Below, piece after piece: positions 4,568 through 43,969 of a stretch of 55,596 nucleotides of DNA. Below the pieces are notes generated by a model. That model saw only the letters and a program-made list of their open reading frames with translations, did no database searches and was not told the origin of the DNA. This DNA is from Corallococcus llansteffanensis (GTDB lineage Bacteria; Myxococcota; Myxococcia; Myxococcales; Myxococcaceae): assembly GCF_003612055.1 (NCBI RefSeq), contig NZ_RAWB01000006.1, forward strand, positions 1 through 55,596. Reading direction: 5' to 3'. How positions within the stretch are numbered: position 1 is the first letter of the stretch; every line of letters begins with the position of its first letter. Position numbers and translations under genes: made by a program.

Positions 4568-6358
4568 ATGAATCCACCTCCGACCCTGTCCCCAGCACGC
4601 GCGCTGCTCCTCAAGCTGCTGATGCTGCGCACGCTCGTCGTCACGGTGGCGGTGGCGCCCGCCATCTACGTCGACATGCAGTTGCTGGACGTGGACTCGA
4701 GCGCGATGGGCTTCGTGCTGGGGGTCGTCACCCCCATCGTCATTGGCGGGCTGGCGCTGGTGGTGCCCATTGGCGCGGTGGGCGCGCTGCTGCGGCACGC
4801 GCTGCACGAGGAGCCCGGCAACGCGCCGGAGCGGCTGCGGCGGCTGTTGCGGCTGCCGGGCGTGCTGACGTTCGTGGAGGCGCAGGCGGGCTGGTTCCTG
4901 GGCGGCATCTGCTTCAACGGCGCCATCGGCCTGGCGCTGGACCGTCCGCCGCGGGTCATCCTGGTGGGCGTGGCGGTGGCGATGAGCGCGGGGCTCTTCA
5001 GCGCGCCCCTCATGTACATGCTCTACGAGCGGACGCTGGCGGCGGTGACGCTGGAGGCCTTCCGCCGCGCGCCGCACGAGCGGCCCGCCGGGGAGGGGCT
5101 GTTCCTGCCCCGGCAGAGCTGGTTCCTGCCGGCCATCGTCGTGTCCGCGCTGCTCATCACGTGCATCACCAGCATCGCGACGTTGCAGCTGCGGCTGGAG
5201 AAGAACCTCTCGTCGCTGGCGGACGACCTGGAGGTGGCGGGCGACTACCGGGGCGCGACGCGGGTGCGCTCGAGCATCGGGCCCCTGCAGAGCGACCTGA
5301 CGACGCCGGTGGCGTTGCTGGGCGGGTTCGCGGCGCTGGGTGCCATCTTCACCGCGGCCTGGGCGGCGCGCCGGCTGTCCCAGGGGGCGAAGGCGATTGG
5401 CGCGTCGCTGGACGCGCTGGTGGAGGGCCGCTCGCAGCCGCCGCAGTGGGTGTCCACGGACGAGCTGGGCGACCTGTCCGCGCGCACGTGGCTGCTCTAT
5501 GAGCAACTGCAGGAGCTGCCCCGGTCGCTGCGCTCGTCGGCGGGGCACCTGGCGCAGGCGGGCACGCGGCTCACCGAGGCGAGCGACCAGCAGAACCGCA
5601 CGATGTCCCGGCAGGCGGCGGCCATCCACCAGGCGCGCACCACGGCGCAGGAGATCCAGCAGACGTCGAAGCTCGCGGCCAGCCGCGCGGGGAACATCCT
5701 CCAGGTGGCGGAGCGCGCGGCCCGGATGGGCAAGCTGGGCGAGGAGTCACTGGCGGGCACGGAGCAGGGGCTCGCGGACATCCGCACCCTCACGAACGGG
5801 CTGAACCAGCAGGTGAGCGACCTGGGCACGCGCGCGCGGGAGGTGGGCCGGGTGTCGGAGGTGGTGAAGTCGCTGGCGGACCAGTCGCACATGCTGGCCA
5901 TCAACGCCGCCATCGAGGCGAGCCGCGCGGGCGAGCAGGGCCGGGGCTTCGCGGTGGTGGCGCGGCAGATGCGCGACCTGGCGGACCAGTCCATCCGGGC
6001 GACGGGCCAGGTGCGCGGGCTGCTGGAGGGCATGGAGGCGGCCACGGGCGAGGCGGTGGTGACGGCGGACAAGAGCGCCCTGGGGGTGGAGGCCGCGCTC
6101 GTGCCGCTGCGCAAGAGCGGCGAGCGGCTGCGCGAGCTCATCTCGCTGGCGCAGGAGTCCGCGCACGCGGTGCGGCAGATCGCCGAGGCCGTAGCGCAGC
6201 AGCACTCGGGTGTGGATCAGCTCTTCCGCGCGGTGAGCGAGATGGACGAGCTGATGGCCGCCACGCTGCGCCAGCTGGACACCACGCAGGCGGCGGCGAC
6301 CGCGGTGGCGCAGGCGACGGGGCAGGTGTCGCAGCTGGCACAGCGGTACGTGTCCTGA
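4568..6358 (+). CDS. Methyl-accepting chemotaxis protein with multi-helix membrane sensor
   Basis: A 596-residue receptor from the ATG at 4568; a GTG at 4541 is possible but adds unconvincing residues. The N-terminal half holds about six hydrophobic segments (near residues 10-35, 45-75, 105-125, 130-155, 190-215 and 245-270) instead of the usual two with a periplasmic domain. The C-terminal half is the coiled-coil signalling hairpin, with the tip [16 protein letters not shown] at about residues 450-465, where CheA and CheW dock. A HAMP linker is not clear. The sensor looks membrane-embedded, so the signal could be membrane state, a lipid-soluble ligand or energy level (inference). It is an orphan receptor 2.4 kb from che operon A. 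Confidence 0.85.
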   Translation: MNPPPTLSPARALLLKLLMLRTLVVTVAVAPAIYVDMQLLDVDSSAMGFVLGVVTPIVIGGLALVVPIGAVGALLRHALHEEPGNAPERLRRLLRLPGVLTFVEAQAGWFLGGICFNGAIGLALDRPPRVILVGVAVAMSAGLFSAPLMYMLYERTLAAVTLEAFRRAPHERPAGEGLFLPRQSWFLPAIVVSALLITCITSIATLQLRLEKNLSSLADDLEVAGDYRGATRVRSSIGPLQSDLTTPVALLGGFAALGAIFTAAWAARRLSQGAKAIGASLDALVEGRSQPPQWVSTDELGDLSARTWLLYEQLQELPRSLRSSAGHLAQAGTRLTEASDQQNRTMSRQAAAIHQARTTAQEIQQTSKLAASRAGNILQVAERAARMGKLGEESLAGTEQGLADIRTLTNGLNQQVSDLGTRAREVGRVSEVVKSLADQSHMLAINAAIEASRAGEQGRGFAVVARQMRDLADQSIRATGQVRGLLEGMEAATGEAVVTADKSALGVEAALVPLRKSGERLRELISLAQESAHAVRQIAEAVAQQHSGVDQLFRAVSEMDELMAATLRQLDTTQAAATAVAQATGQVSQLAQRYVS

Positions 6359-11546: not shown

Positions 11547-13186
11547 GCATCGGGAATCGCATCGCGCTGGGATTCGGCCTGTCCCTGCTGGTCCTGCTGG
11601 TGATCGCCGGCGTCGCCTTCCAGGGCGCGCGGCAGCTCACCAGCACCACGGAGGGCCTGCTGACGGCCCACGAGAACTTCCGCATCCTGCGCGAGGTGCG
11701 CGCGCTGCTGGTGGACGCGGAGACGGGGGAGCGCGGCTTCGTCATCACCGGCCAGGACAGCTACCTGGAGCCCTACAACGCCGCGCTCGGCAACCTGCAG
11801 GAGGACCTGTCCGCCCTGCGGACGGCCATGGCGCCCTATCCCGAGCAGCGCTCGCGGCTGGCCCGCCTGGAGCCCATCGTCAACGCCCGGCTGGAGCGGT
11901 TGAGGGAGGGCATCCGCCTGCGTCGCGAGAAGGGCCTGGAGGCCGCGACGGGCGTCGTGCTGGACGGCCGGGGCAAGGAGCTGATGGACCAGGTGCGCGT
12001 CATCATCGGCGAGATGCTCGACACGGAGCAGCAGCGCTGGGAGCGCGACGCCGAGGCCGCGCGGCAGTCCGCCCAGAACAGCCTGTGGGTGCTCGGCCTG
12101 GGCACGCTGCTGGGCATGGCCATCGTCGGCGTGGGCAGCTTCGTCATCACCCGCGGCATCACCCACCCCCTGCGCAAGCTCACCCTGGGCGCCGAGCAGC
12201 TGGGCCGGGGCGAGCTGTCCCACCGCATCGACGTGCGCGGCCGCGACGAGATGGCGGACCTGGCGAGCGCCTTCAACACCATGGCCGAGCGCCGCCAGCA
12301 GGCCGAGGTGCAGCTGGCGAAGCAGGCCGAGCAGCGCGAGCACACGCTCAAGACGGTGGCGGACTTCGTCAACCAGCTCGCGGGCGCGTCCTCCGAAATC
12401 CTCGCCAGCACCACCGAACAGGTGGCCGGGGCCCAGGAGCAGGGCAGCGCGGTGACGGAGACGGTGAGCACCATCGAGGAGATCACCAAGACGTCGGAAG
12501 AGGCCGCCGGCCGCGCGCGCGCGGTGAGCGAGTCCGCGCGCCACTCGGAGGAGGTGGGCCGCTCCGGCCGCCGCGCGGTGGAGGAGGCCGTGTCCGCGAT
12601 GGGCGCCGTGCGCGACCAGGTGGAGTCCATCGCGTCGCGCATCCTCGCCCTGGCCGAGCAGGCCCAGGCCATTGGCGACATCATCACCACCGTCAACGAC
12701 ATCTCCGAACAGACGCACATGCTGGCGCTCAACGCCTCCATCGAAGCGAGCCGCGCGGGCGAGCACGGCCGCGGCTTCGCCGTCGTCGCCTCCGAGGTGA
12801 AGGCCCTGGCGGATCAATCCAAGAAGGCCACCGCGCAGGTGCGCCAGATCCTGGGGCAGATTCAAAAGGCCACCCACGGCGCGGTGATGACCACCGAGGA
12901 GGGGACCAAGAGCGTGTCGTCCGCCACCCGCGTCGTCACGGAGGCGGGCGCCACCATCCAGCAGCTCGCGGACCTGCTCACGCAGGCGTCGCTCACGGCC
13001 GCGCAGATCGCCGCGTCCGCCAACCAGCAGGCCACCGGCATCGGGCAGATCCGCCAGGCGATGCATGACGTGAACCAGGCCACGCAGCAGGGCCTCATCT
13101 CGTCGCGCCAGACGGAGCGGGCGATGCAGGACATCAACGCCATGGGCCAGAAGCTCAAGGGACTGCTCGGGGAGTTCGGGCGCTAG
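11543..13186 (+). CDS. Methyl-accepting chemotaxis protein with CHASE3 sensor
   Basis: 547 residues. First membrane helix at about 7-28; a periplasmic CHASE3 domain follows, recognised by its hallmark [17 protein letters not shown] near residue 53; second helix at about 180-205, HAMP to about 260, then the signalling hairpin with tip [18 protein letters not shown] near residues 398-415. CHASE3 domains sense unidentified extracytoplasmic signals. The cognate partners are the two CheWs and the CheA-receiver of the same operon. The ATG overlaps the preceding stop (ATGA). Only three bases separate its stop from cheA. Confidence 0.92.
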
Positions 13187-25800: not shown

Positions 25801-27330
25801 ATGCCCCACGTTCCCGCAAGCCCGCGCTCCCGACCTTCCGCCCCGTCCGCACCGGGTGCGTCAGGCCCGAGCCTGCTCGCGCTGCTGGACGGACTGCCGG
25901 AGGCCTTCCTCGCCGTGGACGCCGGGTGGCGCCTCTGCCACCTGAGCCCCCGCATGCGCGAGCTCTTCGCAGGCTGCGTCCAGCCGGGCGACGACGTGCG
26001 CAAGGCGGTAGGCGCCCCGCTCGCCCTGGGCGAACACCTGCGCCTGGACGCGCCCGCCACCGACCAGGCCGCCGTGCGCTACGAGCACCCCTGGCCCGAA
26101 GGCAACCGGTGCTTCGACGTGAGCGCGCGCCCCGTGGAGGGCGGCCTGCTGCTGCACCTGCGCGACATCACCCCCGAGTACCGGGCCCGCCATGAGCTGC
26201 AGCGCGCCGGACAGCTCTTCCAGGCCGTGCTGGAGGGCACCACCGACGCCATCTACATCAAGGACCTGGAGGGCCGTTACCAGGTCATCAACTCCCCGGG
26301 CGCCCGCGCGCTGGGCCGCACCGTGGCGGAGGTGCGCGGCCACTCGGACGGCGAGCTGTTCCCCGCCGACGAGGCCGCCGTCAACCTCCAGCACGACCAG
26401 GACGTGCTCAAGGCAGGCCGCCCCCTCACCTACGAGGACACGCAGCAGAGCCCCGACGGCGAGCGCGTGTGGCTGACCACCAAGGGCCCGCTGCGCGACG
26501 ACGAGGGCCAGGTGTTCGGCCTGTTCGGCATCAGCCGCGACATCACCCAGCGCCGCTGGGCCGAGGAAGAGGTCCGCAGGCACTCCGAGTTCCAGGAGCA
26601 CCTGATGGGCATCATCAGCCACGACATCCGCAGCCCGCTGGGCGCCATCATGAACTGGTCGCGCGTGCTCGCGGCCGGCGGCCCCGCGGAGGAGACGGCG
26701 CGCACCAGCCAGCGCATCGCCACCGCGGCGGTGCGCATCGAGCGGCTGACGCGCCTCCTGCTGGACTTCACCCGCGCGCGGCTGGTGGGCGGCGTCGTCA
26801 TTGAACCGCGCGGCACGGACACCCAGGAGCTGCTGGCCAAGGTGGCGCACGAGTTCCGCGTGGCCTTCCCCCAGCGCCACATCGTCCTGGAGCACAAGGG
26901 CAACACGCAGGGACAGTGGGACCCGGACCGGCTGGCCCAGGTGGTGTCCAACCTGATGGAGAACGCGCTCAAGTACGGCCCGCCGGACGCGCCCGTGCGC
27001 CTGGCCACGCGCGGCCTGCGCAACAAGGTCGTGGTGGAGGTCCACAACCAGGGCCGCCCCATCCCGGAGGCCCTGCTGCCCCACCTCTTCGAGCCCTTCC
27101 GCCAGGGCCCGCAGACGACGCGCACCCTGAAGATGAGCTACGGCCTGGGCCTCTACATCGTGCGCGAAATCGTCCACGCCCACGGCGGCACCATCGAGGT
27201 CGCCTCCACGGAGACCGACGGCACCACCTTCACCGTCACCCTGCCGCGCCGCGCGCCGCCCAAGAAGGGCCCGCCTCCTTCACCACGCGCGGCATGCCGT
27301 ACACCACGCAGGACGACTCCGCCTCCGTGA
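25801..27330 (+). CDS. Sensor histidine kinase, PAS-PAS-HisKA-HATPase
   Basis: 509 residues, no membrane helices. Two PAS domains (residues about 25-125 and 140-255; the second opens FQAVLEGTTDAIYIKD). The H-box GIISHDIRSPLG gives His274. In the ATPase the N-box is NLMENALKYGPP, but the G1 box reads VHNQGRPI, with Asn where Asp normally contacts adenine; GLGLYIVREI is the intact G2 box. The last 20 or so residues (proline- and arginine-rich) are encoded antisense to the end of the convergent cheB, a 95-base overlap, so they are probably not functional. No adjacent regulator; the output is unknown. Confidence 0.88.
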   Translation: MPHVPASPRSRPSAPSAPGASGPSLLALLDGLPEAFLAVDAGWRLCHLSPRMRELFAGCVQPGDDVRKAVGAPLALGEHLRLDAPATDQAAVRYEHPWPEGNRCFDVSARPVEGGLLLHLRDITPEYRARHELQRAGQLFQAVLEGTTDAIYIKDLEGRYQVINSPGARALGRTVAEVRGHSDGELFPADEAAVNLQHDQDVLKAGRPLTYEDTQQSPDGERVWLTTKGPLRDDEGQVFGLFGISRDITQRRWAEEEVRRHSEFQEHLMGIISHDIRSPLGAIMNWSRVLAAGGPAEETARTSQRIATAAVRIERLTRLLLDFTRARLVGGVVIEPRGTDTQELLAKVAHEFRVAFPQRHIVLEHKGNTQGQWDPDRLAQVVSNLMENALKYGPPDAPVRLATRGLRNKVVVEVHNQGRPIPEALLPHLFEPFRQGPQTTRTLKMSYGLGLYIVREIVHAHGGTIEVASTETDGTTFTVTLPRRAPPKKGPPPSPRAACRTPRRTTPPP

Positions 27331-28261
27331 GCACCACGCCCCCCGCGGCGCGCACCGCGCGCGCGCCCACGAGCCCGTCCTCGCCCATGCCGGTGAGCAC
27401 CAGGGCCACGGCGTCCTTGCCCCACCCCGCCGCCACGCTCTCGAAGAGCACGTCCACCGAAGGATGGTGCGGGGTGCTCAGGGGCTGGCGGTCCAGGCGC
27501 ACCAGGTCCAGCGCGCCGTGCCGCTCCAGCTTCAGGTGCATCCCCGCGCGCGCCAGCACCGCGCGCCCCGGGACGAGCTCCAGGCCGTCGCTTGCCTCCA
27601 GCACCTCCAGCGCGCTCAGCGCGTTGAGCCGCTTGGCCACCGCCTCCGTGTAGCCCGCGGGGATGTGCAGCGCGAGCGCCACCGGCGCGGGGAAGTCCCC
27701 GGGCAGCACCGACAGGAGCCGCGTCAGCGCCTGCGGGCCGCCCGTGGACGTGCCCACCGCCAGCAGCTTCGTGGAGGACGCCGCCCCCGTGCGCGCGGCG
27801 CGGACGCCAGCCTCCCCCGTGACCTCCTGCCCGTAGTGCGGCACCGCGCGGCCCGCGACGCGCACCTTCGCCACCAGCTCCGCGCCCAGCTCATACAGCC
27901 GCTCGGTGGCGAGCGCCGTGGGCTTGTGCACCAGGTCCACCGCGCCCGCCTCGAGCGCGGCCACCGCCAGCTCGCTGTCCGTGCCGGTGCTGCTCACCAC
28001 CACCACGCGTGGCGCGTCCGGCATGCCGGCCAGCGCGCGCAAGAGGCCCAGGCCGTCCAGGGCCGGCATCACCAGGTCCAGGGTGATGACGTCCGGCTTG
28101 AGCTCCGCCACCCGCTCCAGCGCGTCCAGCCCGTCGCGCGCGGTGCCCACCACCTCCAGGCCCTCCGCGTCCGACAGCACCTTGCGCAGCACCTTGCGCG
28201 CGAACGCCGAGTCGTCCACCACCAGCACGCGCAAGGGGGGCGCGGACGTCGGGGCCGTCAT
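27236..28261 (-). CDS. cheB: CheB methylesterase, last gene of che operon B
   Basis: 341 residues. Receiver with VLVVDDSAFARK, acceptor Asp in ITLDLVMPALDG and Lys in LVHKPTA. Methylesterase with Ser in AVGTSTGGPQA, His in LALHIPAGYT and Asp in LTGMGEDGLVG, so catalysis should be intact. The ATG overlaps the cheR stop by four bases. It should demethylate the long soluble receptor of this operon. Its 3' end overlaps the convergent kinase gene by 95 bases. Confidence 0.92.
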   Translation of the reverse strand: MTAPTSAPPLRVLVVDDSAFARKVLRKVLSDAEGLEVVGTARDGLDALERVAELKPDVITLDLVMPALDGLGLLRALAGMPDAPRVVVVSSTGTDSELAVAALEAGAVDLVHKPTALATERLYELGAELVAKVRVAGRAVPHYGQEVTGEAGVRAARTGAASSTKLLAVGTSTGGPQALTRLLSVLPGDFPAPVALALHIPAGYTEAVAKRLNALSALEVLEASDGLELVPGRAVLARAGMHLKLERHGALDLVRLDRQPLSTPHHPSVDVLFESVAAGWGKDAVALVLTGMGEDGLVGARAVRAAGGVVLTEAESSCVVYGMPRVVKEAGPSWAARGAAG

Positions 28262-29079
28262 GGGCCCGCCTTGCTGTAGAAGAACGAGCCGCGCCGTTCC
28301 TCGCAGTGCAGCGCTGTACCGAAACGCATCAGGGACTCCGACGTACCCACCAGCAGGTGCCCCCCGGGCTTGAGCACCCGGGTGAGGCCGTCCACCACGC
28401 GGCGCGCGGTGTCGTCCTGGAAGTAGATGAGCACATTGCGGCAGAGGACGGCGTCAAAGGTTTCCGGCGCCGGGTAGTTCGCGCCGTCCATCAGGTTCAA
28501 CTGCCGCCACTCCACCTTCGCCACCAGCTCCGGGCGCACGCGCGGCCGGCTCCCCACGACGTCCAGCCAGCGGCCCTCCACGCCCTTGGGCAGCGCGCGC
28601 AGGCAGCGCAGGTTGTACTCGCCCGTCCTCGCGCGCTCCAGCGCGCGGGTGCTCAGGTCCGTGGCCAGCAGCGACACGTCCGCGAGCACGCCCCTCGCGT
28701 CCAGGAGCATGGCCAGCGTGAGGGGCTCCTCGCCGGTGGCGCAGGCCGCGCACCACACCCGGGGCTTGAGACCGGCGCGCGCCCGGGGCACCAGCACCTC
28801 GTCCACCAGCGCCTCCAGCGCCTGGGGCTCGCGGAAGAAGTACGTCTCGTGCACCAGCAGGGAGTCCACGAGCGCGTCCAGCGCCTCGCTCCCCTTCGGG
28901 TCGTAGCGGAGGAAGTAGTAGTAGTCGAGCAGCGAGTCGAAGCCCGCGTCCAGCGCGCGCGAGGACACCTTCTCCGACAGCAGGTCCCGGTCCTCCGGGC
29001 CGTAGTGCAGCCCGGCACGCTGCTCGATGAGCATCGTCAGGATGGAGAAGACCTGCGGTGACAGCGGCAGCGCGCTCAT
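28258..29079 (-). CDS. cheR: CheR methyltransferase of che operon B
   Basis: 273 residues from the ATG at 29079, 13 bases after the HEAT-protein stop; the open frame upstream overlaps that gene. CheR all-alpha N-domain (VHETYFFREPQ) then the SAM domain (CAACATGEEPLTLA, CRNVLIYFQDD, GGHLLVGTSES). No TPR extension, unlike the CheR of operon A. It should methylate the soluble receptor. Its stop overlaps the cheB start (ATGA). Confidence 0.9.
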   Translation of the reverse strand: MSALPLSPQVFSILTMLIEQRAGLHYGPEDRDLLSEKVSSRALDAGFDSLLDYYYFLRYDPKGSEALDALVDSLLVHETYFFREPQALEALVDEVLVPRARAGLKPRVWCAACATGEEPLTLAMLLDARGVLADVSLLATDLSTRALERARTGEYNLRCLRALPKGVEGRWLDVVGSRPRVRPELVAKVEWRQLNLMDGANYPAPETFDAVLCRNVLIYFQDDTARRVVDGLTRVLKPGGHLLVGTSESLMRFGTALHCEERRGSFFYSKAGP

Positions 29080-29092
29080 GGGCAAGGGCGCC

Positions 29093-31465
29093 TCAACGCC
29101 CCAGCGCCAGCAGGCAGGCACGCCGCACGTCGGCGTCCTCGTCGCGGTGGGCCGCCCGGTCCAGCGCCTCGCGCGCCTCCACCGTGCCCAGCGCCGCCAC
29201 CGCGGGCGCCGTCGCCCGCCGCCCCGCCGGACTGGCGCCCACCAGCGCCTGCATCAGCGCCGCGCGCGCGTCCGCCCGGCGCATGCGCGCGAGCGCCGCC
29301 ACCAGCAGGGGCGCGGTGGTGTCGTCCGCCACCTCCAGCGCCGCCAGGAGCCCCGGCAGCCGCCCGTCCACCGGCAGCGCCAGCGCGCCCACCACCTGCT
29401 CGCGCAGCATCACGTCCCCCAGCAGCGACACCAGCGACTGGGTGGCGTGCAGGCCGGTGCGCGTGGCGAGGAAGCCCACCGCCGCGCTGCGCACGCCGTC
29501 GTCCCGGTCCCCCGCCGCGCGCAAGAGCGCGGGCAGCGTCTCCGGCGCGTCGTACTCCGCCACCGCCGACAGCGCGACGAGCCGCGTGGCCGGGTCCTCC
29601 GAACCCACCGCCTCCAGCAGCACCGGCAGCGCGTCCTGGCGCCGGGCCACGCCCAGCCCCAGCAGCGCCGCGCGGCGCACGTCCGCGTCCGTGGACGAGG
29701 CCGCCCGGCGCAGCGCCGCCATGGCGCTCTCCGTGTGCAGGTGCGCCAGCGCGTCCACCACCGCCACGCGCACCTGGCCCGCGTCGTCGTTGGCCAGCGC
29801 GACGATGGCGTCCGCGGCCGCCTCCTCGTTGAGCTTCCCCAGCGACTGGCACGCGTAGTAGCGCACCCACGGGTCGCGGTCGTTCAGGCCGCCCAGCAGC
29901 GTGGAGGTGATGCGCGCCTGCTTGTCCGTCTGGCCCAGCGCGCGCATGGCCGTGGCGCGCGTGCGCTCGGATTCGTGGCTGGCGGCGGCCAGCAGCGCGT
30001 CCACCGCGCGCGGGTCGTCGATGAAGGGCAGCCCGTAGATGGCCGCGTCGCGCAGCCGCTCGTCCGGGTCCCGCATGGCCAGCAGCAGCGCGTCCAGGCC
30101 GCGCGGGTAGCCGAAGTAGGCCACGATGCGCAGCGCGGCGCGGCGCTGGCGCGTGTCCGGCGAGCGCGCCGCCTCCAGCGCCAGGGTCTCCGTCACCTCG
30201 CTGCCCAGCGACTGGATGGCGCCCACCACCGCCTGCGCCACGCGCGGGTCCTCGTCCGACAGCCGCGCGAAGAGGGCGGGCACCGCGGACGTGTCGCCAA
30301 TGCGCGACAGCGTCTCCGCCGCCAGCGCGCGCACCGTCGCGTCCCGGTCCTCCAGGCACAACAGCACGTCCGGCACCGCGGCGGCCCTGCGGCCCACGAG
30401 CGGCAGCAGGACCCGGCGCCGCGCGCTGTCACCCTCGCGCAGCGCCTGCAGGATTTGAGCGTCCGCCTCCGAGCCCAGCTCCCCCAGCGCCGCCGCCGCC
30501 GCGCGCGACACGCCCAGGTCCTGCGAGTCCAGCAGCTTGAGCAGCCCCGCCGCCGCGTCCGCGCCGCCCACCCAGCCCAACAGCCGCGCCACCGCGGTCT
30601 TCTCCCCCGCGTCCGCGCCCGTGATGACGTGGGCCAGCCTGCGCCCGGTGGGATGGGGCTCCGCCGAACCGGAGCGCAGCATCGAGGGCACCATGCGCGC
30701 GCCGCCGAAGCGCTGCACCTGCGCGTCGTGGATCTCCACCAGCGCCACCGCCGCCGCGCGCACCGCCGCGTCGTTGCCCCGCTGCAGCATGTTCAGGAGC
30801 GCCGGCACCGCGGCCTCCTGGCCGGTGCGGCCCAGGGCGCGCGCGGCCTCCAGGACGTAGAACGGATCCGTCAGCAGCGCCATCAGCGCCGGCACGACCG
30901 TGGGGTCGCCCGAGCGCCCCAGCACGTCGATGGCGGGGAAGATGCGGAAGAAGTTGCCGCTGCCCAGCGAGGCCAGCAGCGCGTCCACCGCCGCGCCGCC
31001 GCCAATGCGGCCCAGCGCCTCGATGGCGGCCACCGCCACGTTGTCGTCCTCGTGCACGGTGAGTCGCGCCAGGAGCGGCACGGACTGGCGGCTGCGGCGG
31101 CGGCCCAGCACCTGCGCGGCGTCACAGACGATGGCCGGGTTGGGGTCGTCGCCCAGCGCCTCCACGGGCGCCTCCACCTCGCCGGTGGCGGCCGCGAGCG
31201 CGTCCACCGCCGCGGCGATGCGCGCCTCGTTGTCCCGCCGGTGGCACAGCACGTCGCACAGCGGCTTCACCGCGGGGGTGCCCAGACGCGCCAGCGCGGA
31301 CACCACGGCGCGGCGCACCGCCCAGCTGGGCGCGTCCAGCCCGGCCACCAGCGCGGGCAGGCTCGCGGGTCCCTGCCGCGCCAGTTGTTCCACCTCCTCC
31401 ACCCGGGCACGGTCGTCCGAGGAGAGGGAAAGGGGGTGCTGCCGCAGGGTCGAAGTCATCGTCAC
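29093..31465 (-). CDS. HEAT/PBS-lyase-like repeat protein within che operon B
   Basis: 790 residues made almost wholly of about 25 HEAT-like repeats of 30-32 residues, each with the pattern D-x-x-V-R-x-A-A-x-x-A-L-G. Examples are [32 protein letters not shown] and [16 protein letters not shown]. No signal peptide or enzyme motif. It should form a long solenoid scaffold that binds proteins. Its start overlaps the receptor stop by four bases, so it is a coupled member of the che operon. From memory, the Myxococcus xanthus Che7 system contains a HEAT-repeat partner (Cpc7) that binds its CheY; this may be the equivalent. Confidence 0.88.
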
Positions 31466-34005
31466 GCTTTCTGCTCCCTGGGGGGACGGGACGCGCCCGC
31501 GTCCTTGCCTCCCAGCAATCCGGTCAGGTGGGACAGCCCCTCCACCTGCTCACCATGAAGTTTCGCGAGCTGCCCCAGCCGGCCCGCCACCTCCTTCACC
31601 TCCTGGGCGGTCACAGCCGAGGTGCGCGCCTGCTGGGCCGTGGTCACGGCGATCTCCCGCGAGCGGCTCCGCATCTCCTCCACCGACCGCCCCACCTGCT
31701 CGGTCACCGTGGCCTGCTCCTGCGCGGCCCGGGCCACGGCCGCCACGCCCGTGGCCTGCTTCGAGGCGGACGTGGTGAGGGCGGCCAGGGCCTCCGTCTG
31801 CTCGTCCAGCGCGCGCGACGTCGTCCTCGCCACGCGGCGCACCTCCTCCGCGCCGCGCACCAGCGAGGAGAGCGCCTGGGCCTGCTCGTCCGTGGCGCGC
31901 GTCACCTCCTGCGCGAGCTTCGCCACCTGGCGGGTGGCCACCTCGCCCTGCTTGAGGGCGCGGCCCTGCTCCACCATCGCCCGCGTGGACTGGGCCACTT
32001 CCTTGCGCGCGTTGTCCATGGCGCGCGCCACCTCCTGCGCGGCCTTCGCCTGTTCGGCGATGCCGGTGAGGGCGCGCTGGGTGGAGGACGTCACCTCCTG
32101 CGCCACCACGCCCAGGGCGGCCACCTGCTGCCCCTGGGCCGTCACGGCGCCGCTCACCCCCTGCACCAACTGCCGCATCTGCACCGCGTTCTTGGCCAGG
32201 TCCGTGGCCGCGGAGGCCTGCTCCTGCATCGCGCGCGACACCTTCTGCGCCACCTCCGACAGCTGGGTGTTGGAGCGCACCGCGTCGCGCAGCGCCTTGG
32301 CCTGGTCCGCGGTGGCCTGGGTGGTCTGCCGCGCCATGCGCCGCATCTCCGTGCCGCTCTGGGCCAGCGCCTGCGCGGCCTGTGCCTGCTCCGTCGCGGA
32401 CGTGGTGATGACCCGCCCCTGCTCGCTCACCTTCGCCGTGGACTGGGCCAGCGCCTGCACCGCCTGCACCTGCTCCGCCGACGCGCGCGATGCCTCGCGC
32501 ACGTTCTGGCCCAGCTCCTCCACGCCCTTGAGGATGGTGCCCAGCGCCTTCTCCGCGTCCCCCGCCAGCGCCGCGCCCTCGTCCGCCGCGCGCACGCCCT
32601 CGCCCGTGGCGGTGGCCGCCTCGCGCGCTGTCGTCTGGAGGCCCCGGACAATCTTGGCCACGTCCGCGCTCGCGGCCGCCGCCCGGTCCGCCAGGGCGCG
32701 GATCTCCTCGGCCACCACCGCGAAGCCGCGGCCGTGCTCCCCGGCCCGCGCAGCCTCGATGCTGGCGTTGAGGGACAGGAGGTTGGTGCGGTCCGCGATG
32801 AGGTTGATGGTCTGCACGATGTCGCCAATCTCTTCAGCGCGCCGGCCCATCTCCTTCATCACCCCGGACGACTCCACGATGGACTGCCGGATGCGGCCGA
32901 AGCCGGCGATGGAGCGCGCCACCGTGACGCCGCCCTCGCGCGCGCTCGAGCCCACGCGTTCGGCGGCCAGCCGCGCCTCCTCCGTCATCTGCGCCGCGCG
33001 GCGCGTGGACGTCTCCAGCTGCGCGGACGCGGAGGCGCTGGTGGACGCCAGGCTGTTGATGCTCTCCGCGGCGCGGGCCACCGCCTGGGCGGAGCGCGCC
33101 AGCTGCTCGATGGTGGCCGCGTTGGCGTCCACCACGGCCGCGTTCTTCTCCGACGTGGCGGCCACCTCCTCCACGCTGGCGGCCACCTCCTCCACCGTGG
33201 ACGCGGTGGACCCCACGTGCGTCTCCAGGGCCCGCGCGTGCTCCGCCACACCGCGCACGCTGCGCGCGACCTCCTCCGTGGTGGAGGCCGTCTCCTCCAC
33301 GCTGGAGGCCATGCTGGCCGCGTCGCGCGAGACTTCATTGAGCGTCTTGCCCAGGGACACGACGGCGCTGGACACCTGCCCCATGCGCTCGCCCACGCCC
33401 TGCGCGTCCGACGACAGCCGGGAGATGCCCTTGGACATCTCCTCGATGGTGGCGGCCACCTCTTCCGTGGTGGCGGCGCTCGTCTGGTTGCGCACCACCA
33501 GGTCCTCCACCGTGGCGTTCATCTCCTGCACGCTCGCGAGCAGCTCCTCGCTGGAGGCGGCCAGCTCCTCCGCGTTGGCGCTCACGCCCTTCACCGAGCG
33601 CGCCACCTGCTCCACCGTGGAGGCCGTCGCGTCCGAGGAGCCGGCGAGCAGCGCCGCGTCCTTGCGCACGCTGGCCACCGACGCGGCCACCTCCTGCATC
33701 GCGCCCGCGGTGGCCTCCGCCTCCTGCTGCACGCCCCGGGCGGACTCGCTCATCGAGCGCTGGTTGCGCACCAGGGACTGCACCGCGGCGCTCGTCTCCT
33801 CCACCTGGGCGGCCACCGACTCGATGGCGGTGCGCACCTGCTCGCCCGACGCCGCCTGCTCGTTGCCCGCCGAGGCCAGGCGCGCCGCGAGCAGCTCCGT
33901 GGACTGCACGAGCCCCGCGCTCTCCTCCACCTTGGCCGCCGTGCGCTCGGCCAGCGCACGGGCATCGTCCAGGCGGGGGGCGCTGCTACCGTTGTCCGTC
34001 GACAT
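31462..34005 (-). CDS. Soluble all-coiled-coil chemoreceptor of unusual length
   Basis: 847 residues with no membrane helix, no HAMP and no recognisable sensor fold. The sequence is heptad-rich Ala/Ser/Glu/Gln throughout. The signalling tip [18 protein letters not shown] is at residues about 417-435, the exact middle, leaving about 416 residues before and 420 after. The N-terminal arm has repeated Glu-pair blocks resembling methylation sites ([39 protein letters not shown]). If helical throughout it would be a hairpin of roughly 60 heptads per arm. It should act in a cytoplasmic array with the CheW and CheA of the operon. Its start lies within the cheW gene (20-base overlap). Confidence 0.9.
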
Positions 34006-34432
34006 TCGCAGTCTCCTCCCCCACCACGCGGGGGAAATCGATGAGCATCACCAGCCGCGGGCCCACCTGCGCCACGGCCTTCACGAAACCCTTCGCGCCC
34101 TCCACCACCATGGGCGGCGGCGGCTGGATGGTGCGGGGGTCCAACTTCAAGACTTCCCGCGCGCTGTCCACGAGCAGCCCCACCGTGCGCTCGCCCAGCT
34201 GACCCACCACCACCCGCGAATCCAGCGAGCGCGTCCCGGGCGGCAGGCCGAAGCGCGTCCTCGCGTCCACCACCGGGATGACGCGGCCGCGCACCTGCAC
34301 CAGCCCCGCCACGTGCGCGGGCGCGCCCGGCACCGGCGTGGCGCCGGAGAAGGACTCCATCTGCACCACGTCCGCCGCGGGCATCGCGTACTCGGTCCCG
34401 TCCACCTTGAACAACACGTGCAGCACGCTCAT
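33986..34432 (-). CDS. cheW: CheW coupling protein of che operon B
   Basis: 148 residues from the ATG at 34432, which overlaps the cheA stop by four bases. Complete CheW domain: [20 protein letters not shown], then [19 protein letters not shown], then [11 protein letters not shown]. It joins CheA to the long soluble receptor. The longer open frame upstream is the antisense-like third frame of cheA and is not used. Confidence 0.9.
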
Positions 34433-36504
34433 GACACCCACTCCCCCGGACGCGCCGCGCCCTTGCGGCGAACCCCGTGCGCCGCGCCGAGCGCGCCCAG
34501 GTCCAGCACCAGCGTGGGCTTGCCATCTCCCAGGTCCGTGGCGCCCGCCACGCCCGGCACGCGCACCAGCGGGTCCTCCAGGGGACGCAGGACGATCTCC
34601 TGCTGGCCCAGGAGCCGGTCCACCGCGAAGGCCACCGGCTCCCCGCGCTGCCGGACGATGAGCGCCTTGGCGCCCCGGCTGACGCCGGCCTGCGCTGGCG
34701 CCGTGCGGCCCAGCAGCCGCTCCAGCGACAACAGCGGCACCGCCGCGCCCCGCCGCTCCACCAGCCCCAGGCCGTCCGCGCCCGCCGGCCGCACCACGCG
34801 CAGCGCGTCCACGTCGATGAGCTCCTCCACCGTGCCCACCGCCACCGCGTACTTGAGGCCCGCGCATTCGAAGACGATGGCGTCCACCAGCGTCACCGTG
34901 AGCGGCACGCGCAGGGTGAACGTGGTGCCCGCGCCCTTGCGCGTCTCCATGCGCAGTTCGCCGCCCAGCTGCTCCACGACGATGCGCCGCACGATGTCCA
35001 TGCCCATGCCCCGGCCGCTGGTGCTCGTGGCCTCCTGGCGCGTGGACAGCCCGGGCCGGCACAGCAGGTCCAGCAGCCCGTCCACCGACTCCGGCACCGG
35101 CGCGTTCGCCGCCTTCGCCACCGCCTTCGCGTCCACGCCGCGGCCGTCGTCGCGCAGCGTGATCTCCAGCTGGCCGCTGGAGCGCGCGTGGCAGCCCAGG
35201 TGCACCAGCCCCTCCGGGGGCTTGCCCGCCGCGACGCGCTCCTCCGGCAGCTCCAGCGCGTGGTCCACCGCGTTGCGCACCAGGTGCACCAGCGCGGGCA
35301 GCAGCCGGTCCGCCACGGCCTTGTCCAGCTCCGCGTCGCCCACGTCCAGCTCCAGCCGCACCGACTTGCCCGTGGTGCGGCGCAGCCCGCGCACCAGCAG
35401 GGGCAGCCGCTCCAGCACGTCGCCCACGCGCACCATGCGCAGGCGCAGGATGGCGGAGCGCAGGTCGCGCAGCTGCCGGCCGTTCTCCTGGAGGATGGCC
35501 GTCAACTCCCGCGTGGGGGCGCCCGTGGCCGTGAGCGCCGTCACCGCGCGCGTCAGGCGGGAGCGGTTGACGACGAGCGCCGCCAGCCACTCCATGGCCT
35601 CGTCCAGCCGCGACACCTCCACGCGCAGCAGGCCGCCGCCCCGGCGCACCTCCGGCTCCTCCATCTCTTCTTCGGCCACGGCCACGGGCACGGCCGTGGG
35701 CGGCAGCGGCGCCAGGGGGACCGCGGCCTCTTCGGGCGCGTCCGCTTCCAGCGAGCGCACCGTGGCGGGAGCCCCGCCCACCGCGTCCAGCAGCGCCGCG
35801 TCGTCCGAGGAGGTGATGAGCAAGAGCGCGAACGCGAGCGAGGCCCCGCCCGCGGCGGCGCCGGACAGCGGCAGCACCTTCACGATGTCGCCGAGCTTCG
35901 CCACGCGCTCGCGCACGGTGTTGATGGTGAGCCCCTGGGCGGCGCGCCCGGCGGAGGGCACGAAGTCCAGCCGCACCGCGCGCTGCCCCGCCGCGAGCCC
36001 GGCCTCCAGCTGCCCGCGCTCCGACGGCGCCAGCTTCGAGGCGAACGCGGCCTCCGCGTCCAGCACCACGCGCCGGGGCTGGGGGGGCGCCGCCTCCAGC
36101 ACGTGCGGGCCCAGGGCCTCCAGCCGCTCCAGCAGGTTCGCCGGCGCGGGCGACGCCGGCTTTCCGGCGCCCAATTGCCGCACCCGCTGCTCGATGGCAC
36201 GCAGCCCCTCCACCAGCGGCTCCACGCTGGACTCGGGCAGGCGGCCTCCAGCCTGATCCGCCAGGCGCAGGGACGTCTCCATCCAGTGGGCCACGGAGAC
36301 GATGGGCTCCACGTCCACCATGGCGGACAGGCCCTTGATGGTGTGCAGGGCGCGGAACAGCTCACGCACCGCGCGGGGCTGGGCCGCGCCCCGGCGCACG
36401 GCCTCCTCCACGGCAAGCAGGTCGCGCTGCGCGGAGGCGAGCAGCTCATCCACCTCCGCCAGATAGGCGGGGAGGAACTCCGCGAACTCCACGGACGTCG
36501 TCAC
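34429..36504 (-). CDS. cheA: CheA histidine kinase of che operon B
   Basis: 691 residues. Hpt domain with His54 in ALHTIKGLSAM; a second, P2-like region follows (residues about 150-235), then the dimerisation helices, ATPase (NAVDHALELPEERV, DDGRGVD, GRGMGMDIVRR) and CheW-like domain to the C-terminus. Unlike the CheA of operon A it has no receiver, which agrees with a separate cheY just upstream. Start and stop both overlap neighbours by four bases. Confidence 0.92.
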   Translation of the reverse strand: MTTSVEFAEFLPAYLAEVDELLASAQRDLLAVEEAVRRGAAQPRAVRELFRALHTIKGLSAMVDVEPIVSVAHWMETSLRLADQAGGRLPESSVEPLVEGLRAIEQRVRQLGAGKPASPAPANLLERLEALGPHVLEAAPPQPRRVVLDAEAAFASKLAPSERGQLEAGLAAGQRAVRLDFVPSAGRAAQGLTINTVRERVAKLGDIVKVLPLSGAAAGGASLAFALLLITSSDDAALLDAVGGAPATVRSLEADAPEEAAVPLAPLPPTAVPVAVAEEEMEEPEVRRGGGLLRVEVSRLDEAMEWLAALVVNRSRLTRAVTALTATGAPTRELTAILQENGRQLRDLRSAILRLRMVRVGDVLERLPLLVRGLRRTTGKSVRLELDVGDAELDKAVADRLLPALVHLVRNAVDHALELPEERVAAGKPPEGLVHLGCHARSSGQLEITLRDDGRGVDAKAVAKAANAPVPESVDGLLDLLCRPGLSTRQEATSTSGRGMGMDIVRRIVVEQLGGELRMETRKGAGTTFTLRVPLTVTLVDAIVFECAGLKYAVAVGTVEELIDVDALRVVRPAGADGLGLVERRGAAVPLLSLERLLGRTAPAQAGVSRGAKALIVRQRGEPVAFAVDRLLGQQEIVLRPLEDPLVRVPGVAGATDLGDGKPTLVLDLGALGAAHGVRRKGAARPGEWVS

Positions 36505-36908
36505 CCGCGCGACGCCTCGTCCTGGGGCTTCGCGTCCTGGGGCTTCTCCAGGAGGGCCCGGGCCGCGCCCTGGATGGAGTCCGGAGTGAAGGGCTTGGTC
36601 ATGAAGCGGTTCGCGCCGGCCGCGAGCGCCCGCTCGCGGGACGCTTCATCCCCGCGGGTCGTGACGATGATGATGGGCAGCGAGCGCAGGTGGTCCTGGC
36701 CCCGCACGAACTCCACGACCTCGATGCCCCCGATGTCGGGCATGTTGAGGTCCAGGACGAGCAGGTCATACGGCTTGAGCGACAGCTGCTCGATGGCCTC
36801 CAACCCGCTGGACGCCTGCGTGAAGCGGCTCTCCGGGTAGGGGCGCAAGCAGGCGACGACCATCTCGCGCATCACCTTGCTGTCATCAACGACGAGTACC
36901 TCGGGCAT
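36501..36908 (-). CDS. cheY: CheY-like response regulator, first gene of che operon B
   Basis: 135 residues, a complete receiver: VLVVDDSKVMRE with the acidic pair, acceptor Asp in LLVLDLNMPDIGG, Thr switch in IIIVTTRGDE and Lys in FMTKPFTPD. The last 15 residues are a charged tail. AGAGGA lies six bases before the ATG. As the promoter-proximal gene it is the likely phosphorylated output of the CheA that follows, perhaps through the HEAT protein. Confidence 0.9.
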   Translation of the reverse strand: MPEVLVVDDSKVMREMVVACLRPYPESRFTQASSGLEAIEQLSLKPYDLLVLDLNMPDIGGIEVVEFVRGQDHLRSLPIIIVTTRGDEASRERALAAGANRFMTKPFTPDSIQGAARALLEKPQDAKPQDEASRG

Positions 36909-39682: not shown

Positions 39683-42394
39683 ATGAACCTCCTCGCCGAC
39701 CTCATCGAAGCGAACCTGGAAGCGCTGGTGCACCGCTTCGTGGAGGAGACGCGCGGCAGGGAGAGCAGCCAGGGCCTGAAGCCCTCGGAGATCATCACCA
39801 CGCTGCCGGAATACCTGCACGCCGTGGCCGGCATCTGCCGTCACGGCCCCACGCCGGAGCGGCTGGAGACACGCAGGCGCCTGGAGGAGGCCCACATCAA
39901 CCTGCGCCTGCGGGTGGGCGCCACGCAGGAGGACGCGACGGACGAGTACACGCTCCTGGGCCGGCTCATCCCCCGGCTCTGGGCGGACCGGCGGCCCGGG
40001 CAGCAGCCCTCCGCCCCGGAGCTCCAGTGCCTCTTCCAGCAGCTGGAGGAGGCGATAGACCACGTGGTCGCCCTCTTCTCCGGCTACACGCTGGAGGACT
40101 GTCAGCGTGAGAAGCGCTTCCTGCGACAGCTGGACGCGCTGGCACCCCGGCGACTGGCGGCGCGAGAGGACCTGCACGCGCGGCTCAAGCCCCTGGTGGA
40201 CACCCTCTGCCGCGCGCTGAAGGCCTCCGGGGGGGAGCTGTTCCTCGTGGATCCGGACGGCGAGCCGGAGGGCCGGAGGCTGGTCGCCGTCACCCACACG
40301 GAGCACGACGCCCCGCGCCCCGACCGGCCGCGGGTGGACTCCGGGGGGCCGTCCTTCCTGGCGAGGGTGGCCCGCTCGGAGGAGCCCCTGGTGCTGGCCC
40401 AGGCGCACGGGCTGGCCGAGTCCGAGCGCGAGGGCCTGGACGCGCGGGGCTGGAGCACGCTGCTGGGCTTGCGCCTGTGGCCCCACGGCGAGCTGATGGG
40501 CGTGCTGTGCGTGGGCTTCGCGGAGGGGCGCCCCGTGCCGCCGCGGACCAGGCGCTTCTTCGAGACGCTGGTGGAGCACCTCTCCGGCATCCTCGACCGC
40601 GCGCTGCTGATGGGGAAGCTGCACGAAGCCCACGAGCAGTTGGCGGCGGCGGAGACGCGCTACCGGCTGGCGACCCAGGCGGCCGCCGACGCTGTCTGGG
40701 ATTGGGACCTCGTCACGGAGCAACTCACCTGGAGCGGGGGGATGCGGGACCTGACCGGCTTCGCGCCGGAGGAGGCGGGGCCGACCGTGGACTGGTGGGT
40801 CGCGCGCCTCCACCCCGAGGACCGCGAACGGCTCCTCCAGGAGGCGCGGACGGCGCGCGTCCAGGCGGACAGGGAGCTGGAGCGGCTCAACACGCTCCTG
40901 CATCAAGCGCCCGTCGCGCTCGCCATCTTCCAGGGCCCCACGCACGTCGTGGAGCTGGCCAACCCCCGCATCCTCCAGCTCTGGGGACGCACGCGCGCCC
41001 AGCTGCTGCACCGCCCGGTGCTGGAGGCGCTGCCGGAGGTGCAGGGCCAGGGCATCCAGGAGCTGCTGGACGGGGTGTTCACCACGGGCGAGCCCTACGT
41101 GGGCCAGGAGCTGCACGTGCGGCTGGCGCGGGCACCGGGTGGAGCGCTGGAGGACGTGTACTTCAACCTCGTCTACCAGCCGCTGCTGAGCGCGGAGGGC
41201 GCCGTGGAGGGCATCCTCGTCGTCGCCACCGAGGTCACCGACAGCGTGCGGGCCCGGCAGCGCACGGAGGCGCTGGCCGGCACGCTGCGCGTCAGCGAGG
41301 AGCGGCTGCGGCTGGCGCTGGACGCGGCGGACATGGGCAGCTGGGACGTCAATCCCGTCACGGGGGAGTCCTCCTGGAACCCCCGCTTCCGCGCCCTGCT
41401 GGGCCTGCCCCCGGACAGCGAGGTGTCGCTCGAGGAGGCCATGCAGTTCGTCCTCGAGGAGGACCGGGAGATGGTGAAGCAGGCGCTGGCGGAGGCCATC
41501 GCGCGCAAGGGCTCCGGTGAGTACGCGTGCGAGTTCCGCGTGAAGACGCCCGTGGGGGACGGCCAGAAGGTGCGGTGGGTCTCCGGGCGGGGGCAGATCC
41601 ACTTCGGGCCGGACGGCCAGCCCGTGCGCTTCGTGGGCACGGCGCTGGACGTGACGGAGCACAAGCTCGCGGAGGCCGAGGCCCGGCAGCGCGCGGAGTT
41701 CGAGCAGTACCTGGTGGGCATCGTGTCCCACGACCTGCGCAACCCCCTGAGCGCCATCCTCCTGGGCACGTCGTCGCTGCTGCGGCGCGACGAGCTGGAC
41801 GAGCGCTCCACCAAGGCCGTCCTGCGCATCCAGGCCTCCGCCGAGCGGGCGGTGCGGATGATCCGCGACCTGCTCGACTTCACCCAGGCGCGCGTGGGCG
41901 GGGGCATCCCGGTGCACTGCCAGGACCTGGACCTGGCCACGGTCGTGCAGCAGGTGGCGGAGGAGGTGCAGGTGAACTTCCCGGAGCGCGTCCTGCGCAC
42001 GGTCACGACGGGCACCGGGACGCGGGGTTGCTGGGACCCCGACCGCATCGCGCAGGTGCTCACCAACCTGGTCAGCAACGCGCTGAAGTACTCGCCGGAG
42101 GACACGCCGGTGACGGTGCGCGTGGGGGGAACGCCCCGGAGCGCCGTCCTGGAGGTGCACAACGCGGGCGACCCCATCGCGCCGGACCTGCTGCGCCGCC
42201 TCTTCCAGCCCATGCAGCGCGGGGCGCCGGGCATGGACCGCACGACGCGCAGCGTGGGGCTGGGGCTCTACATCGTGCGGCACATCGTGGACGCGCACGG
42301 GGGCTCCATCGACGTGACGTCCACCCCGGAGCAGGGCACCACCTTCACGGTGAAGCTGCCCCGCGACGGCGTCAGGCCGCCCGGCAAGGGCTAG
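39683..42394 (+). CDS. Large soluble histidine kinase: RsbRD-like N-domain, GAF, PAS repeats, HisKA, HATPase
   Basis: 903 residues. The N-terminus (residues about 5-155) resembles the RsbRD/globin-like sensory domain (ALVHRFVEETRG, TLPEYLHAVAG). A GAF-like domain follows (about 170-320), then a truncated PAS (WDWDLVTEQLTWSGG), a PAS (about 405-525) and another PAS (about 535-665). The H-box GIVSHDLRNPLS gives His683. The G1 box reads VHNAGDPI, with Asn for Asp; GLGLYIVRHI is intact. No membrane helix. The 3' part of this gene is repeated almost exactly in the kinase fragment at 43.7 kb. No ribosome site is evident at the ATG. Confidence 0.88.
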   Translation: MNLLADLIEANLEALVHRFVEETRGRESSQGLKPSEIITTLPEYLHAVAGICRHGPTPERLETRRRLEEAHINLRLRVGATQEDATDEYTLLGRLIPRLWADRRPGQQPSAPELQCLFQQLEEAIDHVVALFSGYTLEDCQREKRFLRQLDALAPRRLAAREDLHARLKPLVDTLCRALKASGGELFLVDPDGEPEGRRLVAVTHTEHDAPRPDRPRVDSGGPSFLARVARSEEPLVLAQAHGLAESEREGLDARGWSTLLGLRLWPHGELMGVLCVGFAEGRPVPPRTRRFFETLVEHLSGILDRALLMGKLHEAHEQLAAAETRYRLATQAAADAVWDWDLVTEQLTWSGGMRDLTGFAPEEAGPTVDWWVARLHPEDRERLLQEARTARVQADRELERLNTLLHQAPVALAIFQGPTHVVELANPRILQLWGRTRAQLLHRPVLEALPEVQGQGIQELLDGVFTTGEPYVGQELHVRLARAPGGALEDVYFNLVYQPLLSAEGAVEGILVVATEVTDSVRARQRTEALAGTLRVSEERLRLALDAADMGSWDVNPVTGESSWNPRFRALLGLPPDSEVSLEEAMQFVLEEDREMVKQALAEAIARKGSGEYACEFRVKTPVGDGQKVRWVSGRGQIHFGPDGQPVRFVGTALDVTEHKLAEAEARQRAEFEQYLVGIVSHDLRNPLSAILLGTSSLLRRDELDERSTKAVLRIQASAERAVRMIRDLLDFTQARVGGGIPVHCQDLDLATVVQQVAEEVQVNFPERVLRTVTTGTGTRGCWDPDRIAQVLTNLVSNALKYSPEDTPVTVRVGGTPRSAVLEVHNAGDPIAPDLLRRLFQPMQRGAPGMDRTTRSVGLGLYIVRHIVDAHGGSIDVTSTPEQGTTFTVKLPRDGVRPPGKG
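42143..42352 (+). repeat. Copy 1 of kinase 3'-end duplication
   Basis: This ATPase-coding stretch matches 43730-43939 in direct orientation. By eye the last 157 bases (42196-42352 against 43783-43939) are identical; the preceding part differs at a few positions. Confidence 0.85.
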
Positions 42395-43173: not shown

Positions 43174-43340
43174 AGCAGGAGACCCGCACCGCGCACCGGC
43201 CCCTCGACGAGGCCCGGGGATGCTGCTGCACCGCGAGGGCGTCAAGGAGGAGGGGAGGGGGTGCGGCTGGCGTGGAACTGACGCGGGAAAAGAATCCCCG
43301 CAACCTTTCCGGCGCCCCCGGGTTCATCACGGAAACACGC

Positions 43341-43360
43341 GGCGGAGCTTCTTCTCCGCC
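43341..43360 (+). terminator. Hairpin in the leader of the small lipoprotein gene
   Basis: GGCGGAG-CTTCTT-CTCCGCC, a perfect 7-base-pair stem lying 20 bases before the ATG at 43380. It could end the upstream hydrolase transcript (no T run follows) or regulate translation of the small gene. Confidence 0.35.
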
Positions 43361-43379
43361 ATTGCTTCCGGGAGTCCCC

Positions 43380-43622
43380 ATGCGCCGCTCCATCGTCGCC
43401 GCCACCGCCACCGTCGCCTTCTTCCTGGGCTGCGCCACCAACCACGCCTACGCCGAGCGCCAGCCGCGCATGCGCGACGCGCTCGCGCACCTGGAGGCCG
43501 CGCTTTCGGACCTGCGCGCCGCCACCAGCGACAAGGGCGGCCACCGCGCGAAGGCCATCAGCCTCACGGAGCAGGCCATCTCCTCCGTGCGGGACGGCAT
43601 CCAGTTCGACAACCGCCACTGA
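43380..43622 (+). CDS. Small exported helical protein, possible lipoprotein
   Basis: 80 residues. MRRSIVAATATVAFFLGC is a signal sequence with a possible lipobox Cys18; an alternative signal-peptidase I site follows AYA at 25. The mature part is two short helices with the conserved-looking DKGGHRAKAISLTEQAISSVRDGI, a pattern I have seen in small proteobacterial proteins of unknown function. GGGAG lies five bases before the ATG. It precedes the kinase fragment directly, which may mark an old deletion end. Confidence 0.75.
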   Translation: MRRSIVAATATVAFFLGCATNHAYAERQPRMRDALAHLEAALSDLRAATSDKGGHRAKAISLTEQAISSVRDGIQFDNRH

Positions 43623-43624
43623 AG

Positions 43625-43969
43625 CGCCCTTCTGTCCGCGTCCAGACGGTGAGGGGCCTGGCCTCATGGGCGAAGGACTCACCGGAGGGCACCCCCATCA
43701 CCACGCGCCTCCAGGGCAGCGGGGACACCGCCGTGCTGGAGGTGCACAACGCGGGCGACCCCATCCCGGCGGACCTCTTGCCCCGCCTCTTCCAGCCCAT
43801 GCAGCGCGGGGCGCCGGGCATGGACCGCACGACGCGCAGCGTGGGGCTGGGGCTCTACATCGTGCGGCACATCGTGGACGCGCACGGGGGCTCCATCGAC
43901 GTGACGTCCACCCCGGAGCAGGGCACCACCTTCACGGTGCGGCTGCCCCGCGAGGCCACCGGGCGCTAG
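43625..43969 (+). pseudogene. Truncated histidine kinase: only the ATPase C-terminal part remains
   Basis: An in-frame tail of about 105 residues: SPEGTPITT, VHNAGDPIPADLL, GLGLYIVRHI and TTFTVRLPRE, ending in TAG. The N-box, H-box and every sensor domain are missing and no start codon with a ribosome site is present. Over 157 bases it is identical to the end of the 903-residue kinase gene 1.6 kb upstream, so it is a paralogue kept similar by recent duplication or gene conversion. Its TAG lies in the palindrome GCGCTAGCGC, sharing CTAG with the opposite-strand stop of the adjoining receiver tail. It forms the left chromosomal flank of the proposed element. Confidence 0.85.
43730..43939 (+). 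repeat. Copy 2 of kinase 3'-end duplication
   Basis: Direct repeat of 42143-42352, 1,587 bases apart. The last 157 bases are identical by eye, including all synonymous positions, which suggests recent duplication or gene conversion rather than protein-level conservation. Confidence 0.85.

Follow-up and report, generated by a model that had tools for sequence, protein, structure and literature searches.

A soluble myxobacterial chemoreceptor, Mcp7, with its signalling tip at mid-chain and a probable hairpin of about 58 paired heptads per arm

The chemoreceptors described to date fall into twelve length classes, 24H to 64H (PMC6943060), with 12 to 32 paired heptads at a rise of 10.5 Å per paired heptad, and "a few rare" longer ones (PMC6628036). 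The receptor considered here is encoded on the minus strand, from 34005 to 31462, of a 55,596-nucleotide stretch of Corallococcus llansteffanensis DNA (the window: assembly GCF_003612055.1, contig NZ_RAWB01000006.1, positions 1 to 55,596); gene order and sequence identity mark it as Mcp7, which serves the Che7 system of myxobacteria as its soluble receptor. In Myxococcus xanthus the che7 genes are MXAN_6965 to 6959, Mcp7 being MXAN_6962; its fusion to green fluorescent protein (Mcp7-GFP) gathers in one or two subpolar clusters of unusual mobility, and CheW7 is an interaction partner of Mcp7 (PMC3945109). A paralog is McpJ (MXAN_5907, class 64H), with which it is grouped as a sister arising from a recent duplication (PMC3945109).

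The identification as Mcp7 follows from the order of the operon, cheY-cheA-cheW-receptor-HEAT-cheR-cheB, which is that of M. xanthus che7, together with 73% identity to the copy in M. xanthus AM003 (L048). The protein has 847 residues, and PF00015, with a conserved hairpin tip, is the sole family above cut-off in it (143.2 bits vs. 34.6); Mcp7 of M. xanthus is likewise soluble with a single PF00015. Among 28 loci compared from Corallococcus, Myxococcus, Pyxidicoccus, Polyangium, Sorangium, Minicystis and other relatives, the receptor has the same set of genes around it in all, as far as the contigs extend. A search of the protein for HAMP and sensor families gave none at E<=0.1, though a very divergent HAMP is still possible at that threshold, and a scan for transmembrane-like stretches across the 847 residues found none; an NCBIfam search returned only generic receptor and coiled-coil matches, far under their cut-offs. 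The original prediction, made from the letters of this DNA, had placed a receptor lacking HAMP, membrane and sensor domains at the same coordinates, and both points stand, with the gene on the minus strand; what it missed was the identity as Mcp7 and the division into an inner half of 64H size and an added outer half.

The tip glutamate of the motif AGEHGRG is E423 (32737-32739), with 422 residues on its N-terminal side and 424 on its C-terminal side. The signalling tip (residues 408-436; 32698..32784, minus strand) lies within a block, 405-436, that is invariant in 29 orthologs. The Thermotoga maritima receptor 2ch7 aligns around it (phmmer, E=5e-28), and its solved structure superposes on residues 269-575 of the Mcp7 model at 3.2 Å over 307 residues, placing the hairpin centre at about 422-423; the T. 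maritima protein forms a hairpin like that of Mcp7, but one of 307 rather than about 816 residues. Such a long C-terminal side is unusual within the genome itself, where 18 of the 21 receptors that could be placed on the tip end 140-165 residues past it, the exceptions being the McpJ ortholog (224), Mcp7 (424) and L009. The last of these, possibly the McpK ortholog, has the tip sequence IIAAQAGEHGRPFGVV, which includes a proline, and extends for at least 603 residues on its C-terminal side, the frame being still open at the end of the fetched DNA.

Both arms of Mcp7 appear to be coiled throughout. Family-averaged hydrophobicity, taken in 42-residue windows, has a heptad period of about 3.50 with a constant phase of about 0.2 residue over residues 1-840, lost solely in windows over the tip; neither arm was found to contain a stutter or skip in the register, and there is no proline between residues 11 and 840. 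The coiled part covers roughly residues 13-830, or about 58 paired heptads per arm (116-118 in total), against the 32 of the longest described class. A coiled coil of class 64H ends at 32 heptads per arm; that of Mcp7 has a break near +/-224 and continues beyond it, so that the inner half alone fits that class. From the letters it had been predicted that the whole chain is coiled coil around a tip at about residue 424 of 847, as is found here, and that each arm has about 60 heptads, about 120 in all; the paired hairpin survives, its length being slightly reduced, and the total of about 64 given there as the known maximum is that of the published classes (PMC6943060, PMC6628036).

Nearly all Mcp7 homologs have 844-852 residues. 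In 59 orthologs, with identity down to about 50%, indels between residues 13 and 826 are confined to L041, a divergent Myxococcales metagenome-assembled genome (6 and 7 residues in the N-arm, close to its base, and 2 in the C-arm), and L044 (1 residue), and the C-terminal end is shortened in L041 and L091. Against divergent Polyangia-type orthologs, Mcp7 has 0.12 gap openings per 100 residues vs. 0.4-1.5 for six other proteins of the operon, the identity of which is similar to or above that of Mcp7. This near absence of indels and the unbroken phase are what a rod with paired arms would require.

A longer period is superimposed on the heptads. The C-arm is autocorrelated at 28 residues (z about 4) and 56 residues (z about 5) relative to heptad-preserving shuffles, and the 28/56-residue period is common to both arms. 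The four-heptad repeat (31546..32475, minus strand) appears in the C-arm as rows of EQ, DQ, AQ or QQ at residues 511, 539, 567, 595, 623, 651, 679, 707, 735, 763, 791 and 819, and the 28-residue EQ spacing is visible in the C-arm of McpJ too. Extension of the arms by one duplication of about 196 residues was considered and rejected: the N-arm lacks autocorrelation at 182-210 residues and the C-arm shows it weakly, which favours repeated 28/56-residue units over a single duplication.

That receptor arms pair in the inner half is known; for the outer arms, four partly independent signs argue for pairing, namely covariation, mirrored conservation, the common 28/56-residue period and mirrored breaks in the AlphaFold2 (AF2) models. 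Arm-to-arm mutual information averaged along anti-diagonals peaks at i+j=847-849 among some 620-660 windows in all four settings tried. For the inner half taken alone i+j=847 is among the top four windows, and for the outer half alone i+j=845-849 attains at best rank 0-9 of 242-290; among the top 200 single covarying pairs the mirror diagonal is not enriched, and the signal is informative only once averaged. Conservation along the chain is mirror-symmetric about the tip, with r=0.81 at a centre sum of 844-845, the best of 181 shifts. AF2 monomer models give helices at 8-199, 224-618 and 649-830 in the window protein and at 2-190, 229-610 and 649-835 in a Sorangium ortholog (tip at 420), with breaks (200-223 and 619-648; 191-228 and 611-648) mirrored within a few residues. 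The outer N-arm (residues 8-199; 33409..33984, minus strand) and its proposed partner, the outer C-arm (residues 649-830; 31516..32061, minus strand), are each a single predicted helix. A separate N-terminal bundle of 150-200 residues, unpaired with the C-terminal arm, had been named in advance as the outcome that would speak against a full-length hairpin; the first 190 or so residues are instead modelled as one straight helix rather than a multi-helix bundle, and the C-terminal helix is equally long. Matches from VIA-align to SMC, MukB and other coiled coils had large root-mean-square deviations or coiled-coil likeness alone and were left unused. Together with the heptad continuity and the scarcity of indels, these sequence and model features support a double-length paired hairpin.

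The hairpin seems to have two parts. McpJ, whose C-arm is exactly 224 residues long (32 heptads), matches positions 161-606 of the Mcp7 profile, and the AF2 breaks, some 195-230 residues from the tip, lie at the level where a 64H hairpin ends. Variability (entropy) and glycine content both peak at this level, 28-31 heptads away from the tip, in the N- and the C-arm alike. Beyond 80 residues from the tip, glycine is invariant at three positions only, all of them here: G193, G205 and G648 (-230, -218 and +225). The heptad phase is kept across this level. I read the inner half (residues 224-618; 32152..33336, minus strand) as a 64H-type hairpin, and the outer half as adding about 27 heptads per arm where a receptor usually has its HAMP, membrane and sensor modules; in McpJ that place is taken by HAMP and membrane segments, in Mcp7 by the further paired heptads. 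From sequence and AF2 together, the glycine-rich level is probably a second flexible hinge, with an N side at residues 193-223 (33337..33429, minus strand) and a C side at 619-648 (32062..32151, minus strand), the latter mirroring the former about residue 423.

Several points weigh against a hairpin paired over its whole length. The conservation of the outer half by itself gives r=0.75 at the tip-centred register vs. 0.82 at another shift, and its covariation is modest and varies with the setting. In the divergent L041 one heptad (66-72) is missing from the N-arm, close to the base, and the C side shows only a 2-residue gap and the shorter end. The AF2 models are of monomers, with a predicted template-modelling score of 0.28, and apposition of the outer arms is not seen in them; their breaks could be artefactual, stemming from the modelling of so long a rod (60 nm). 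Finally, Mcp7 of M. xanthus was published in 2014 as a protein of 821 residues and class 40H (PMC3945109), a label that the homologs seen here, with about 58 paired heptads per arm, call into question.

With these points taken into account, it is likely that Mcp7 as a whole is a single hairpin of about 58 paired heptads per arm, acting as the Che7 receptor with Cpc7, the HEAT protein, at the output. Each chain would fold back once at residue 423 with its arms paired in one register, and the dimer would be a four-helix rod of about 61 nm (58 x 10.5 Å). The tip would dock CheW7 and CheA7 as in other receptors, the inner 30 or so heptads forming a 64H-type signalling hairpin; the outer 27 or so would substitute for the HAMP, membrane and sensor modules, with the glycine-rich joint between them, and would bar Mcp7 from arrays of other length classes. 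Signal input would be likeliest at the outer rod, by way of partners bound at its base or along the bundle and of methylation at sites distributed over the length of the rod, and output would run from CheA7 to CheY7 to Cpc7.

More tentatively, and with somewhat less than even confidence, Mcp7 may represent a receptor class of its own, at about 116 heptads. Receptors of this class would be soluble, two-hinged rods of 61 nm, with a doubled coiled coil in place of the sensor and methylation sites extending far past the usual adaptation region, and would form arrays of a new thickness. For the full-length hairpin as such, Mcp7 arrays should be of an unusual, measurable thickness, clearly other than a 27-35 nm baseplate spacing, and the rod would be nearly twice as long as the longest described length class. 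Receptor length sets which receptors can share an array; in E. coli, one-heptad length changes have been reported to block co-clustering (PMC7534058), and a published analysis of array packing covered coiled coils up to 32 paired heptads only (PMC6628036). A conserved receptor of this kind in a genetically tractable group (M. xanthus) makes it possible to test directly the reach of a signal along a four-helix bundle, the use of a second hinge and the spread of adaptation sites. The protein itself is already known, if little studied, and extra receptor length as such is not wholly new, since rare longer receptors have been mentioned (PMC6628036); our literature search on longer receptors and on the length of Mcp7 found nothing past that remark, and the length of Mcp7 is apparently undescribed in the literature searched.

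The best-surviving alternative, which we regard as a distinct but minority possibility, is that the outer halves serve mostly as an architectural spacer, with opposing receptors overlapping in a two-baseplate cytoplasmic sandwich, the baseplates far more than 27-35 nm apart and no sensing in that part. The cytoplasmic arrays known so far, in Rhodobacter and Vibrio, are indeed two-layered, with baseplates about 27-35 nm apart (PMC3964821, PMC7534058), and Mcp7 is soluble without a recognisable sensor domain; tomography of Mcp7 arrays was not found in the literature. A receptor rod between two baseplates, as in the DosM/cytoplasmic F9 arrays of Vibrio cholerae, is possible for Mcp7, but DosM has two signalling tips (PMC7534058) and the Mcp7 sequence a single tip motif. 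The distribution of methylation-type motifs suggests more than spacing. Mcp7 has 12 matches to the receptor methylation motif vs. 3.1+/-1.6 expected, a number reached by none of 500 heptad-preserving shuffles, and over half of them fall in the outer part; that at E153 is conserved in 59 of 59 orthologs, and those at E181, E237, E279, E539 and E651 in 40-54 of the 59. These candidate sites may be in use, spread along the rod.

It is unlikely that the inner 64H-like hairpin alone is the receptor and that the outer helices are separate coiled coils, self-dimerising or serving as tethers, which do not pair with one another. Such an arrangement would account for the AF2 break in both arms and for the peak in variability and glycine, all at the 64H boundary. 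That boundary, however, is crossed without indels in the 59 orthologs and without a break in heptad phase, the outer lengths are equal, the breaks are mirrored and the outer covariation lies near i+j=847-849.

Nor do we find it probable that some other structure of the cell acts as a scaffold for Mcp7, in the way that the nucleoid does for FrzCD, with the rod spanning from the scaffold to the CheA/CheW layer. FrzCD and Mcp7 are both soluble M. xanthus receptors with no membrane segment, and FrzCD binds DNA (PMC12077210), but the clusters of Mcp7, unlike those of FrzCD, lie in subpolar positions and are the most mobile (PMC3945109). FrzCD, moreover, has 417 residues, a DNA-binding N-terminus and two HAMP domains before its signalling domain; in Mcp7 neither a HAMP family (at E<=0.1) nor a HAMP-like helix-loop-helix was found, residues 8-199 being a straight helix in the AF2 model.

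Least probable of all is that the signal enters via the HEAT protein, bound along the rod, an input proposed in the original prediction: the two genes are conserved neighbours and co-occur exactly, in the identical 50 of 195 Myxococcota genomes, but the interaction with CheY7 and the developmental output published for the M. xanthus protein (PMC11514114) account for the linkage equally well. That HEAT protein, Cpc7, is described there (citing Darnell 2014) as interacting with CheY7 and affecting development, and since its partner is the response regulator, Cpc7 most likely acts after the kinase, at the output rather than the input. The Cpc7 ortholog of the window (790 residues; 29093..31465, minus strand; HEAT_2, 315 bits) shares 4 bases with the end of mcp7. 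The operon includes a HEAT gene at each of the 28 loci, directly after mcp7 in 27; in L041, which has the family's sole substantial indels, it lies upstream of cheY. Mcp7 and its HEAT partner have a patchy distribution and are missing together from several genera of the same family; a McpJ-like receptor is more widespread.

The remaining genes of the operon, all on the minus strand, are cheY7 (36501..36908; Response_reg, 91 bits), cheA7 (34429..36504; Hpt, H-kinase_dim, HATPase_c and CheW domains), cheW7 (33986..34432; PF01584, 109 bits), the methyltransferase gene cheR7 (28258..29121; PF01739, 150 bits; start codon uncertain) and the methylesterase gene cheB7 (27236..28261; PF01339, 175 bits, plus a receiver domain). 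Two further chemoreceptor signalling domains are encoded on the plus strand of the window at 5795-6253 and 12527-13081, so that several chemosensory genes are grouped together; in M. xanthus the che6 and che7 locus tags adjoin each other (PMC3945109). Elsewhere in the window a direct repeat of 236 bases, 94% identical, occurs at 42142-42377 and 43729-43964. Its second copy corresponds to the 3' end of a histidine kinase gene (39683-42394), recurring as a fragment inside 43220-43969, and is likely a remnant of a local duplication.

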